Of a DNA stretch of 64,000 nucleotides, positions 13,482 to 56,688 are shown one piece after another (position 1 is the stretch's first letter; each line of letters begins with the position of its first letter). This DNA is from Clostridiales bacterium (GTDB lineage Bacteria > Bacillota > Clostridia > Christensenellales > CAG-314): positions 115,611-179,610 of the forward strand of contig JAFLVJ010000004.1 of NCBI GenBank assembly GCA_022508375.1. Reading direction: 5' to 3'. The translations under genes were made by a program, and so were the position numbers. A model generated the notes under the pieces. The model was not told the DNA's origin. It searched no databases and worked only from the letters and a program-made list of their open reading frames with translations.

Positions 13482-13604
13482 CTATTTATTATAAATAAAT
13501 AGAAATCGACCATTTTACGGGCTTTTACACACCATTTTAGCGATAAAAACCAAGCAAAAGTTGCTATGCGTGTCATAGTAGTTTATAAAAGCACAAAAAT
13601 CGAC

Positions 13605-23905: not shown

Positions 23906-25279
23906 TTATAGTACGACTGCAAATTTGTAACGTTTCCACACGCAAAGTGATGCGCAAGCAACCAAGTCGAGTGCAATAATAAAAAACGCAGTCGCATTGA
24001 CGATTGAAGAATAATCCCGAACCATTGTGTGCACGTACGCCATACCTTCACCTGCTCTGTCAACAGAGTAATTCTCATATATAACGTATGGGTCGTCGTT
24101 ATTTGCCATTTCGGGATATTGCCAATACCTAACGTTAAAGAATGAAAAGGATCCGTCCTCTTCAATCAAAAAATAACGTGGCGCTTCAAATGAGAAAGGG
24201 GAAATACCAAGTTGCGTACCGTCACCTAAAAGCATACTAATGTTCTCATTAGTGATTGTAAACGAGTATCCGCGGTAAACAGCAACATAGCCGTCCCCCA
24301 AATCAAATTCTTCGCCGAGCTTAGCTGTTTTAGCAAGCTCCGACAGCGGAAACCGCTTCCCCGTGTCAAATTCTCCAAACGATTCCATATGTTTAACAAA
24401 ATCCTCTGCGCTAGCATTTTCGTATATAGTAGCTTTATCTTCAAGGCGTACAAAACTTAAAACGGTTGCCACTATTGCTGCAAAAGTAATTGGTATAATG
24501 CCAATCAACGCTATCATACGGATAAATTTTTTACTCCGATTTATATGCGAACACGCCTTTTCGCCACCCCACTTCACAAGCGCTCTTTTATACAAAAACC
24601 AACCTATCAAAAACAATGCAATCGCAACTATACCAAACACCACACAGGTGACAATACCACAGTTGCGTATGGAGTGGCAAATAACCAATCCAACTGCGAC
24701 AACAATCATTGCGAGGATATTTGTAGCCGCCAATATATAAAGACAATTTGAAAGTTTTTTACGTAAAACTAGACAATACGTGCCGTATTGCTCGGTCGAA
24801 TCATCAACAGACGCCTCCAATCCTTTCCAATCGGCAAAAAGATTTGTCAAGCAAATAATAAGAGGAACAAGCCCTACAAGCAGAACTCTCCACCACGGAA
24901 AACCATCTCTCGACACGGTTGTTATTTCAATGTACGCGCAGACGGCTACAAGCAATACGCACGTAATGATAATACCCATCAAAGTCCAACATTGCGTGCC
25001 GAATCGCGCAATTTTACTCTTGAATATTTTCTTTTCCGACTTGCCCGACAACGACACATCACTTCGTGATATGCGTTCTCCCGCCAATATTTCATCGACT
25101 GTAACCCCATAAAGCTCTGCCAGTACCGGCAAAAGCAGTATATCAGGTAGCACCTTGTCGCACTCCCAACCGGATAAGGTACGGTTGCTTATTCCCAAGC
25201 GGTCAGCGACTTCCTGTTGCGTGTAACCGTTAGCCTTGCGTAAAGTAGCTATAAATTCGCCAATTGTTTGTTTTGTCAT
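23906..25279 (-). CDS. XRE-family regulator with C-terminal multi-TM and extracytoplasmic region
   Basis: HTH: IATLRKANGYTQQEVADRLGISNRTLSGWECDKVLPDI; several TM segments, about 130-aa soluble segment and a final TM. Confidence 0.85.
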   Translation of the reverse strand: MTKQTIGEFIATLRKANGYTQQEVADRLGISNRTLSGWECDKVLPDILLLPVLAELYGVTVDEILAGERISRSDVSLSGKSEKKIFKSKIARFGTQCWTLMGIIITCVLLVAVCAYIEITTVSRDGFPWWRVLLVGLVPLIICLTNLFADWKGLEASVDDSTEQYGTYCLVLRKKLSNCLYILAATNILAMIVVAVGLVICHSIRNCGIVTCVVFGIVAIALFLIGWFLYKRALVKWGGEKACSHINRSKKFIRMIALIGIIPITFAAIVATVLSFVRLEDKATIYENASAEDFVKHMESFGEFDTGKRFPLSELAKTAKLGEEFDLGDGYVAVYRGYSFTITNENISMLLGDGTQLGISPFSFEAPRYFLIEEDGSFSFFNVRYWQYPEMANNDDPYVIYENYSVDRAGEGMAYVHTMVRDYSSIVNATAFFIIALDLVACASLCVWKRYKFAVVL

Positions 25280-26619: not shown

Positions 26620-26773
26620 AATTCCTCCATAAACGATACTGACCTTAGTTTGAATATCGAAACAATAAATATGCGCCTATATCTACAAAATTGTATAAAA
26701 CAGCAAAAACAGGGCAAAAAGTGCTATTATTACAGACATAGTATTATGCAAATACATCAAATTAAGAGTTGTT

Positions 26774-40995: not shown

Positions 40996-41223
40996 TTATA
41001 TTAACATATTGCAGTCAATAAAGCAACTGTTTTACCGCATTTTTAATTACGAATTTGTTATGAATTTAACTTTATTTTATAACTACAAGCTGTTTCGTTG
41101 ATAAAAAACCGCAAGCGATATTTTTGAGAAAATACTCATTTTTGAGGCAATAATAATGCTATGTCTGTAATAGTAGTTTGCAAAACGACCAATTTTGCCA
41201 TAAAAATGGCATTTTTTTGCCGA

Positions 41224-46612: not shown

Positions 46613-46655
46613 TTTGATAGTTATGTTACACATAGTATTATACGATATCGGCGTT

Positions 46656-47621: not shown

Positions 47622-50600
47622 CTACATTGCTTGCTTGATTGCTTCGGTAAGTTTTACCGACACAATCTTAGATACGCCCTTTTCTTCCATTGTTACGCCG
47701 TACAGAACGTCGGCATTTTCCATTGTGGGCTTTTTGTGGGTGATGACGACAAATTGTGTAGAGGTAGAGAATTTGCGCAGATATTTTGCGATTCTCTCCG
47801 CGTTCGCATCATCCAATGCCGCTTCGATTTCGTCCAATACGCAGAAAGGCATTGGATTGTATTTCAATATCGAAAACAGTATTGCTGCCGTCGTCATTGT
47901 ACGCTCACCACCGGATAGCAGCGAAATATTTTGCAATTTCTTTCCCGGGGGTTGCGCCTCAATTTCTACACCTTGGTCAAGCGACTCCTTGCTCGGGTCT
48001 TTTTCTATGTACAGACGCGCATTTCCGCCGTTGAACAATTCACGGAAAATAAGCTTAAAGTTATCGTTTATCTGCGTCATACCGTCTTCAAAACGCGCTT
48101 CGATATCCGCCGTCAGTTCTTTCAACGCACTCTTGAGGTCTTCTTCCGCTTTTTTGAGGTCGTCAAGCTGTGCCATCAGTTCGTCGTAGCGAGCTTGTTC
48201 CACTTCAAGTTCCTGAATGGATGCGACGTTTACGTGTCCCATCTTCATCATTTCCTGCTTAAGTTCGGAAATACGCTCCTTACCGGCCTCTTTATCGTAA
48301 TTCTCATCCTTGTATTGCATTGCAGCCGAATAGGTTATGCCATATTCTTCCTGCACCTTTTGTTGCAATTCAAGTAGGTCGTCATCGATTTTATTGAGAA
48401 TATATTCCTCTTTGTCAATCGTACCGTTCAACGCCTCTAGCTCGTTCGACAAACGGAACCGTTCATCAGTCAAGCGTTGAAAATCACTGTCCATTTGCAT
48501 CTTTAGTGCTTCCGTTTCCTTAATTTGCGCAAGAAGCTGTGTCATATCCTCCTGCAAATTGGTATCGGTCACACTTTCGTTAAGTGCGCTGTACATGTTG
48601 TCGATTGCCGAACGCACCTGCGCAATATAAGACAATCGTGACGCTATGCTATCCTTCAAGGTTTCTATTTGAGCAGTATTGTTCTTTATATCCTTTTCAG
48701 CCGTTTCGATGTTAGAAGTGAGCAAAGCCAAGTGATAGCGTTTATCTGACAGAACCTGATAAAGCGAATCCTTTGCAGCGTTTTCCAGTTGACTGGTTTG
48801 ACGCGCATGATCGGATTTTTCACGCAACTGTTTTTCAGTCACAGCCAGTTCCTTCAAACGGCTATCGTACTTTTTGATAGATTCATCAATTTGAATCAAT
48901 CGTTGCAAAAGTTTTTCCTTTTCTCCGGACAAACGCAAAACATTTTTCTTATCGGAATTAGACAGCGTATTGGAAGTTTCAATTTTCTCTTTAGCCGTTG
49001 CAATCTCAATCTTTAACGCATTGAGTGCATCAGTCACATTATTAGCCGTCGTACGTGTTTCTTCCAAAAGTGCGTCGAGTTTGCGCTTTTCTTCCTCGGT
49101 TTGTTGCAAATCCTTGAGCAGCTCCTCAAGTTTTAAAGAACGCTCGGAAATCTGGGTCTCGTAGGAAAGCAGATTTGTGCCGGATTGTTTCTTTGCGCTA
49201 CCGCCTTCCATTGAACCGTCATTTGAAATACGTTCGCCGGTAAGCGTAACCATACGGTGAGCGTAGCGATATTTTCTGCTGATGGAAATAGCATTGTCAA
49301 ACGTGTCCACTACCACAATTCCGCCAAGCAATGACTCAAAAACATTGGAGTAATGCTTATCATAACTTATTAGTTCAGACGCAATACCAAGCACGCCCTT
49401 TTCCTTCAACACTTCGGCGCGATCGATTCCGTGCGGTTTCATCGAACTGACCGGAAGGAACGTTGCCTTACCGTAGTCATTGATCTTGAGGTAATTGATA
49501 AGGTACTTTACGTCTTCTTCATTTTCGGTGACGATATTTTGAAGTCTTCCGCCAAGCGCTGTTTCAATGGCAAGTTGCAGTTTAGGCTCCACTTTCATAA
49601 GATTTGCCACCACTCCACGGATATGCGACGCAAGTTCTTTGTCGCGCTTTGCATCTTGCATAAGATACTGGATACTTGCTTGGTATCCCCTGTAGTTAGT
49701 AGCAAAGTCGCGAAGCATGTCGATTCCGCCCTTTTCGCCGGAGTAAGATTGTTGCTTACGAGTGAGATCCTTTGTAAGATTGAACTGCTTAAACTCCAAA
49801 TCCTTGACCTGTTGCTTGAGTTGGCGAAGAGTGTTTTCGAGGTTGTCTCTTTCCTTACGAAGTTTTTCGTAACGACCGAGCAAATCGCCTTCTTCACCGG
49901 CAGATTCCTGCAATTTTTGCGTAAGTTCCGCTTCGCTGGCAATAATTTGCTCGAACCGCTCGGATATCGTCGCCTTTTCCGTTTGCAATGCTACCAGTTT
50001 ACTGTTGGATTCCGAAATTGCCTGCATTGCCTCATCCAACCTTTTGCGCAGACTTTCGGCACGTTGATTTATTTCGTCAACACGCTTACCCACCGAAGAA
50101 AAGTTCTCGTTTGCCTGTTCAACTTCTTTTTCAAGTGTTGCCAATTCTTCATTACGGCGAAAACGTAAAGCAGCAAGTTCCTCATTTGTCTGAGTCAGGT
50201 TCTCAATTTCCTGCTTGCTTGTCGCAATCAGTTCCTCATTGGATTCAATTTCGCGGTTGCAACTGTTGATACGCTCTTGAATAAGGTTCTTTTCGCCCGA
50301 ACTCTTTTCCAACTTGACAGCCAAAGTTACCTGTTTATCACGCAATGCTGTTATTTCACCGTCAATACCGTTGCGTCTATGGAACATCTCGTCGTACTGC
50401 TCGTTGATTTCAGCGTATTGCGATTCCTTAAGGTTATATTCTTCCTTTAATCCCTGAAGTTTCTTTTTGCCGTTTTCCTTGTCCTGGCTTGCATTATCGT
50501 ATCCGTAAATGTAGGCGTTGATTTCGCACAAGCGCAGTTCATCGTAAACTTCAATGTATTTTTTTGCTATGGTTGATTGACGCTTAAGTTCCGGCAGATG

Positions 50601-51203
50601 GCGTTTCATTTCCTCTACCAGAATCATAATTTGCGTTGTATTTGTGCGCGTCTTTTCCAGCTTGCGCTCCGTTTCTTCCTTTTGAACACGGAAGGTGGAA
50701 ATACCCAACGCGGCCTCGAATATCGAGCGTCTGTCTTCGGGACGTGCATTCAAAATAGCGTCCATTCGCCCCTGCCCAACTATCGAATAGCCGTCTCTGC
50801 CCAGTCCAACGCCACGCAAAAGTGACAATATATCACGCAAACGAACTACGTTTCGATTGAGCAAATACTCGCTTTCGTTATTGCGGTACAGCTTACGGCT
50901 GATGATAATTTCGTCCATGGGTATAGCAAACAGTCTTGTTGTGTTGTCAAAAAATAACGACACCTCGCAGTAGCTCATGGATTTGCGCGAGTCAGTACCG
51001 TTAAAAATCAAGTCCTGCATCAACTTACCGCGCAAATTTTTGGTGCTTTGTTCACCAAGAACCCAACGAATAGCATCGGAAATATTACTTTTACCGCAAC
51101 CGTTCGGACCGACAATACCCGTTATCGGCTGATCGAATTTCAATTCTATTTTGTCTGCAAAGCTTTTAAAGCCGTACATTTCAATTTTTTTCAAATATAG
51201 CAC
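47622..51203 (-). CDS. smc: Chromosome segregation protein SMC
   Basis: 1193 aa; MYGFKSFADKIELKFDQPITGIVGPNGCGKSNISDAIRWVLGEQS; hinge and coiled coils; LLSGGERTMTTAAILFSI. Confidence 0.98.
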   Translation of the reverse strand: MLYLKKIEMYGFKSFADKIELKFDQPITGIVGPNGCGKSNISDAIRWVLGEQSTKNLRGKLMQDLIFNGTDSRKSMSYCEVSLFFDNTTRLFAIPMDEIIISRKLYRNNESEYLLNRNVVRLRDILSLLRGVGLGRDGYSIVGQGRMDAILNARPEDRRSIFEAALGISTFRVQKEETERKLEKTRTNTTQIMILVEEMKRHLPELKRQSTIAKKYIEVYDELRLCEINAYIYGYDNASQDKENGKKKLQGLKEEYNLKESQYAEINEQYDEMFHRRNGIDGEITALRDKQVTLAVKLEKSSGEKNLIQERINSCNREIESNEELIATSKQEIENLTQTNEELAALRFRRNEELATLEKEVEQANENFSSVGKRVDEINQRAESLRKRLDEAMQAISESNSKLVALQTEKATISERFEQIIASEAELTQKLQESAGEEGDLLGRYEKLRKERDNLENTLRQLKQQVKDLEFKQFNLTKDLTRKQQSYSGEKGGIDMLRDFATNYRGYQASIQYLMQDAKRDKELASHIRGVVANLMKVEPKLQLAIETALGGRLQNIVTENEEDVKYLINYLKINDYGKATFLPVSSMKPHGIDRAEVLKEKGVLGIASELISYDKHYSNVFESLLGGIVVVDTFDNAISISRKYRYAHRMVTLTGERISNDGSMEGGSAKKQSGTNLLSYETQISERSLKLEELLKDLQQTEEEKRKLDALLEETRTTANNVTDALNALKIEIATAKEKIETSNTLSNSDKKNVLRLSGEKEKLLQRLIQIDESIKKYDSRLKELAVTEKQLREKSDHARQTSQLENAAKDSLYQVLSDKRYHLALLTSNIETAEKDIKNNTAQIETLKDSIASRLSYIAQVRSAIDNMYSALNESVTDTNLQEDMTQLLAQIKETEALKMQMDSDFQRLTDERFRLSNELEALNGTIDKEEYILNKIDDDLLELQQKVQEEYGITYSAAMQYKDENYDKEAGKERISELKQEMMKMGHVNVASIQELEVEQARYDELMAQLDDLKKAEEDLKSALKELTADIEARFEDGMTQINDNFKLIFRELFNGGNARLYIEKDPSKESLDQGVEIEAQPPGKKLQNISLLSGGERTMTTAAILFSILKYNPMPFCVLDEIEAALDDANAERIAKYLRKFSTSTQFVVITHKKPTMENADVLYGVTMEEKGVSKIVSVKLTEAIKQAM

Positions 51204-56512: not shown

Positions 56513-56688
56513 GTATTATCTATACTATGTCTGTCATATTACTATACAAAATGATAAATTTAACAATAATATAGCCACTTTTGACCACACAATCAGACCA
56601 CGCATCACCGACATAAATTTAACTGCAAAAAAAAGACAATCAAATATATATTCCACATACATCAACGGACAAGAGAATAAATTACTAT

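Follow-up and report, generated by a model that had tools for sequence, protein, structure and literature searches.

A 19-bp sequence recurs in separate intergenic regions of a 64-kb stretch of a clostridial draft genome. This stretch, hereafter the window, comprises positions 115611-179610 of contig C19 of genome G000 (1.63 Mb in 24 contigs). An earlier note had described four near-identical copies of the sequence and had proposed that they are binding sites for a regulator, sites of chromosome architecture, or a small mobile repeat. All four copies were found where it had placed them and on the strands it had given, and a search with the consensus at up to three mismatches yields exactly 4 matches in the 64 kb, against 0.03 expected from dinucleotide-preserving shuffles. 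The features considered here, among them a fifth site and a weak candidate, are listed in Table 1.

Table 1. Sites of the terminus array in the window, and the dif-like site beside the recombinase gene (window coordinates unless a contig is named).
Feature	Sequence	Position	Strand	Scores and remarks
Terminus-array site	GCTATGCGTGTCATAGTAG	13563..13581	+	R1 E=5.2e-5; intergenic
Terminus-array site	ACTATGTCTGTAATAATAG	26724..26742	-	R1 E=5.2e-4
Terminus-array site	GCTATGTCTGTAATAGTAG	41158..41176	+	R1 E=1.4e-6
Terminus-array site	ACTATGTCTGTCATATTAC	56524..56542	+	R1 E=8.2e-6
Fifth terminus-array site	ATTATGTCTAGCATAGTAA	2086..2104	+	PWM 21.0; R1 E=2.7e-4
Weak candidate site	GTTATGTTACACATAGTAT	46620..46638	+	PWM 14.9 only; not in R1 matches at E<=0.1
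dif-like site		G020:C1:203168-203197; own C19:62542-62571 (outside window)		Beside xer

The site extends well beyond the 19 bp. From 40 sites of two species we obtained the consensus TTTnnnATACTATGTCTGWAATAGTATTnTATAAA (consensus site sequence ACTATGTCTGWAATAGTAT), the core of which is a quasi-palindrome around GTCTGWA. Symmetry is broken in the centre (G T C T G W A/C) and in the flanks, of which the right one is better conserved. The core dyad CTATG-N5-CATAG named in the earlier note is better described as ATACTAT-GTCTGWA-ATAGTAT together with the conserved right flank, about 33-35 bp in total.

Copies exceed controls genome-wide: at up to three mismatches the pattern matches 15 times and its reversed form 5 times, and a position weight matrix (PWM) applied to 740 kb recovers 40 sites against about one in shuffled or reversed DNA. 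The enrichment between genes that the earlier note had suggested looking for is pronounced: 26 of these 40 sites are intergenic, compared with 10% of the DNA (P = 2e-17; 740 kb). Many of the intergenic sites are close to the 3' ends of the upstream genes. The statement that no copy lies within a coding sequence holds for the four sites on which it was based and fails elsewhere, as about one third of sites are intragenic, several of them at conserved positions. The gaps between sites are barely more even than random (P 0.06-0.09), and thus no regular spacing is claimed.

We found that the sites are confined to the replication terminus, that they are polar, and that their strand changes at dif, all of which strongly supports the chromosome-architecture option. 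In a whole-contig scan of G020, the genome of a second species (contig of 1,097,360 bp, with 65 kb at the contig end masked), there are 20 PWM hits at a score of at least 14. Of these, 18 lie within 56-377 kb and form a run of 9 minus-strand followed by 9 plus-strand sites, so that 18 of 18 are polar; the other two hits are the weakest listed. The pattern matches, among those listed, also fall without exception in 56-377 kb; below 190 kb every one is on the minus strand, and above 207 kb every one is on the plus strand. The GC skew of this contig turns negative at about 205 kb, where the site strand switches, and positive again at about 840 kb; this places the replication terminus at the switch point. 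On C19 of the window's own genome, the GC skew flips at about 60 kb, and the sites occupy the minus strand at 5-25 kb and the plus strand from 64 kb onwards; C1 and C20 carry plus-strand sites only. Orientation relative to origin and terminus, a comparison that the earlier note had proposed, thus does flip at the terminus.

The same polarity is seen across the genus. Among the matches listed on 17 xer-bearing contigs, 91 sites agree with it and 7 do not. With the two genomes used for model building removed, the figures, again among the matches listed, are 61 and 6 (P about 1e-12), a probability that overstates independence because some of the sites within one genus go back to a common ancestor. 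Weak matches resembling the site were also seen outside the terminus region (own C12:145216-145234; G020:C1:546346 and 838345); these may be chance or stray sites.

Individual sites of the window conform to this arrangement with one exception, and 14 of the 18 terminus sites of G020 share a gap or a position in a coding sequence with the window's genome, some of them inside conserved genes. The site at 13563 belongs to the right arm and has the expected polarity; it lies 33 bp off the 3' end of the upstream minus-strand gene. The site at 41158, the best match in the genome, shares its gap with the G020 site at 114202, and the site at 56524 occupies the same gap as the G020 site at 99061, keeping the polarity of its arm although the flanking genes run opposite to the usual direction. 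The exception is the site at 26724, the sole one of inverted polarity on C19; in G020 this gap has a normally oriented site, at 128987. The fifth site, absent from the earlier note, overlaps the start of a minus-strand ORF (1653-2099), and its position matches that of the G020 site at 153870. The window also encodes, at 23909-25279 on the minus strand, a 457-aa protein whose N-terminal domain is HTH_3 and whose long C-terminal part matches nothing in Pfam.

Overall, the array comprises about 20-30 sites, with neighbours mostly some 4-48 kb apart, over roughly 320 kb or more. All of the genomes are drafts and most are metagenome-derived; copy numbers per genome are therefore lower bounds.

At the strand switch, both species have the gene order mutS-mutL-miaA-methionine gamma-lyase-[tyrosine recombinase]-hflX-lexA, in which the names mutS, mutL, miaA, hflX and lexA were assigned from the sequences of the genes, without a profile search. 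The tyrosine recombinase (355 aa) scores best against XerS, below the cut-off of that model. This XerS-like recombinase is 76-100% identical in 23 of the 25 genomes of the genus, the remaining hits being remote. Upstream of its gene, 20 of 22 genomes carry a dif-like site, CTATTCGYAAAA-N6-TTTTRCGAATAG, which emerged only from a genus-wide comparison of the DNA upstream of the recombinase: a search near the terminus with the Firmicutes dif consensus gave nothing convincing, and a MAFFT alignment of the recombinase upstream regions was uninformative. A dif site beside its recombinase gene is usual in single-recombinase systems (PMC5357621), and the XerS-like/dif module offers a starting point for understanding dimer resolution in these gut Clostridia. 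We considered whether the dispersed motif is itself a dif variant or Xer-binding site and rejected this on sequence, given that the local dif-like site beside xer is CTATTCGCAAAA-N6-TTTTGCGAATAG; as the motif is unlike it, the motif is not a Xer site.

The terminus of the window's own genome also carries an insertion of about 28 kb between lexA and ygjP-padR (C19:30619-59132, outside the window), which contains a 6,644-aa ORF with a secreted-protein-like start and two more large ORFs.

The array is common to all 25 genomes of the genus, to other genera of the family and to two further sampled families, with a motif that diverges. At up to two mismatches, the motif is present in all 24 further genomes of the genus (2-13 copies each), and 16 genomes of other families in the order have 0-2 copies. 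A sequence-only model of the 35-bp site finds 5-28 sites in each of the 25 genus genomes (E <= 0.001) and 2-11 sites in five other genera of the family; in families f15, f19 and f32 its matches are scattered and weak. For two of these families the DNA was read directly, covering most of an 824-kb contig in G210 (f15) and 200 kb of terminus-flanking DNA in G055 (f32). The RTTATGTSWSRCATAGTAC sites of G210 switch from the minus to the plus strand at xer (17 of 19 in polarity), and a dif-like repeat, CACTTCGTAAAA-GTTGTG-TTTTACGAAGTG, lies beside xer and is related to the dif-like site of the genus. G055 has an array of nearly symmetric, more palindromic RTTATGTCTGACATAATAY sites around xer, and its polarity is weaker; this suggests that polarity is perhaps dispensable in places.

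Which protein reads these sites? A likely candidate, judged from its domains, position and promoter, is a transmembrane PadR protein that we call PadR-TM (440-490 aa). In most of the genus its gene is within a few genes of xer, and in f15 and f32 it likewise maps close to the terminus. In the window's own genome PadR-TM is encoded at C19:28116-29579, with the winged-helix domain in residues 1-110. PadR-TM consists of a PadR winged helix (PF03551, E = 9e-20), a long acidic linker and four hydrophobic C-terminal helices. In an AlphaFold2 model built on a 31-sequence alignment, the winged helix and the C-terminal helical bundle are confident and the part between them is disordered; the best PDB matches found with Foldseek are PadR and LmrR. 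In a class-wide sample, a joint match to the winged helix and the C-terminal domain (E <= 1e-25) is restricted to the order, and matches outside the order are ordinary PadR proteins of 114-155 aa. Two genomes, G019 and G270, have sites and no strong PadR-TM match, perhaps as a result of assembly gaps.

A copy of the motif lies 75-87 bp upstream of the PadR-TM start codon in 18 of 20 genomes of the family, f1 (19 loci with upstream DNA, plus G020), one of the copies being weak (L247, 13.0). In G020, for example, the site is at 207449 and PadR-TM starts at 207526. Four of the 18 positive genomes belong to three other genera, and the sequences of the promoter sites differ, which indicates that the position has been kept while the letters drift. 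Among the 20, the window's own genome and G023 have no such site, and any autoregulation would therefore not be universal; padR and xer are, in addition, on different contigs in G023. Upstream regions of PadR-TM in f17, f6 and f29 gave no match to the genus motif. Full-length homologues with 26-30% identity occur in f17 and f6 (L250, L251, L254 and L256), and these are candidates for a diverged array; f3, f10 and f29 are further families of the order with PadR-TM.

In the operators of PadR proteins, ATGT and ACAT form an inverted repeat, usually 8-10 nt apart (PMC3506622); the core TATGTCTGACATA contains ATGT-N3-ACAT, a spacing of 3 nt if taken literally. The same work reports that PadR proteins can autoregulate and that PadR dimers have the fold and dimer layout of RTP despite a lack of sequence similarity (PMC3506622). 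In the open-access literature, we found no link between PadR and a terminus array.

We consider it probable that the motif is the DNA half of a membrane-anchored terminus-organising system, MatP/matS- and RTP/Ter-like in its properties and built from unrelated parts. This proposal draws on features legible in the genomes: an array that is confined, polar, centred on xer/dif and conserved, and a copy of the site in operator position before PadR-TM. In the mechanism that we envisage, polar quasi-palindromic sites of 33-35 bp, with an ATGT...ACAT-like dyad and oriented symmetrically on both arms around dif, would be bound by dimeric PadR-TM through its PadR-type winged helix, while the C-terminal four-helix domain would anchor the protein in the membrane by way of the long, flexible, acidic linker. 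PadR-TM, encoded at the terminus, may repress or tune itself through the copy of the site in its own promoter. With many sites held at the membrane, the terminus would be gathered and tethered beside the XerS-like/dif dimer-resolution site and the division machinery, and the polarity of the sites might lead the bound protein to treat machines entering and leaving the terminus differently, be they the replisome, SMC or FtsK.

The strongest of the other readings is that the array is a replication fork trap, in which PadR-TM on polar sites would act like RTP of B. subtilis or Tus of E. coli and stop forks on their way out of the terminus, membrane anchoring being secondary. Polar sites do flank dif with a strand switch there, the site is a quasi-palindrome with an asymmetric, better conserved right flank, the gene of the reader would, like rtp and tus, map to the terminus and have a site in its promoter (PMC10331603), and the fold and dimer arrangement are common to PadR and RTP (PMC3506622). 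We nevertheless regard it as unlikely, as some 20-30 sites are far denser than a trap needs, incoming forks would stall at the 7 of 98 sites (among the matches listed) that break polarity, f32 sites are nearly symmetric, and RTP and Tus, neither of which has a homologue in the 25 genus genomes, are not membrane proteins.

A somewhat less probable reading, which also has PadR-TM as the reader, is control of SMC or of a DNA motor: within the terminus, the bound protein would unload the former or orient the latter, in the manner of XerD sites (SMC, B. subtilis), matS/MatP (MukBEF, E. coli) or KOPS (FtsK). The polarity fits a directional motor; an SMC is encoded in the window (47622-51203); MatP/matS works through terminus-wide arrays of several sites with an effect graded by site number (PMC10945525); and XerD unloads SMC at the B. 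subtilis terminus (PMC12322038). Against this, the motif is unlike the local dif and hence no Xer site, a 19-35 bp sequence present about 30 times differs from the KOPS octamers found chromosome-wide (PMC6549158), and no direct link between PadR-TM and SMC was seen. Tethering, fork trapping and control of SMC or FtsK are not mutually exclusive.

That the sites are operators of an ordinary PadR regulon, whose genes happen to be near the terminus, is improbable. In its favour, PadR proteins regulate transcription, can do so for their own genes and can bind many promoters (PMC5050560), intergenic positions account for 65% of sites, and one site stands at a fixed promoter distance before PadR-TM; the regulator option of the earlier note was therefore right in part, because a site does precede the gene of a probable DNA-binding protein. 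However, many of the intergenic sites are near the 3' ends of upstream genes, a third of sites are within genes, and the strand follows the chromosome arm even where the flanking genes are reversed (window 56524, G020 99061). The mobile-repeat option, or chance similarity, can be set aside: near-identical copies are indeed spread over several gaps, but the expected count per window is a small fraction of one, 14 of 18 positions are conserved across two species, orientation follows the chromosome arm within a confined terminus, and the flanks inspected show no element body or flanking duplications.

We return to the membrane-anchored terminus system in its broadest form, which we advance tentatively, as a proposal that could as readily fail as hold: throughout a whole order of gut Clostridia, a transmembrane PadR-fold protein on a dense, polar, dif-centred array would anchor the terminus to the membrane and give a directional signal, an independently evolved arrangement with properties of both MatP/matS and RTP/Ter, in which a regulator operator has turned into a chromosome landmark. 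Few lineages are known to have a terminus system; fork traps based on Tus or RTP occur in four clades only (PMC6549158). If the proposal is true, this would be a previously undescribed way to handle the bacterial chromosome terminus; the marking of the terminus with directional sites would have arisen again, in uncultured Clostridia with an unrelated, membrane-anchored reader; and a fork-trap-like fold (PadR/RTP) would be tied to membrane tethering. The finding supplies a DNA consensus and a protein that are directly testable in vitro.

How does this array compare with known terminus systems? Profile searches, each with a working control, found no RTP (PF02334; the control finds B. subtilis), MatP (PF06303; the control finds E. 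coli) or Tus (PF05472) in any of the 25 genus genomes. In likeness to MatP/matS of E. coli, the sites here are palindrome-like, terminus-confined and similar in count, and a link to the septum or membrane is expected. The matS site is symmetric rather than polar, and MatP is a ribbon-helix-helix protein without a membrane domain. Sites of f1 and f15 are, by comparison, asymmetric and polar, and those of f32 nearly symmetric. E. coli has 28 matS over an 838-kb Ter region (PMC10945525).

With RTP/Ter of B. subtilis the array shares polar, quasi-palindromic sites of about 30 bp on both sides of dif in opposite orientations, as well as, if PadR-TM is the reader, a winged-helix dimer of common fold and layout whose gene has a site in its promoter (PMC3506622, PMC10331603). 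Both rtp and tus have a ter site in the promoter, through which each gene is autoregulated (PMC10331603), and on the same condition a promoter site of this kind is present in those 18 of 20 f1 genomes, weakly in one. The candidate reader here differs in belonging to the PadR sequence family and in having four predicted transmembrane helices, and the sites are more numerous and denser. Tus/Ter of E. coli also has polar sites around dif and an autoregulated protein gene beside a site; unlike here, its sites are non-palindromic and Tus is a monomeric, unrelated protein.

The XerD sites at which SMC is unloaded in B. subtilis (Karaboja et al. 2021, cited in PMC12322038) are similar in being several terminus sites apart from dif in the same phylum; the present motif differs in being unlike the local dif arms and in having a candidate reader that is not a recombinase. 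KOPS, SRS and AIMS likewise switch orientation at dif, but these are 7-8 bp long and extend over the whole chromosome (PMC6549158, PMC5357621), in comparison with about 30 copies of 19-35 bp near the terminus only. On this comparison, the number and density of the sites look more matS-like, and the polarity and promoter site more fork-trap-like. By function the system is a terminus site array; by its parts it is none of the named systems.
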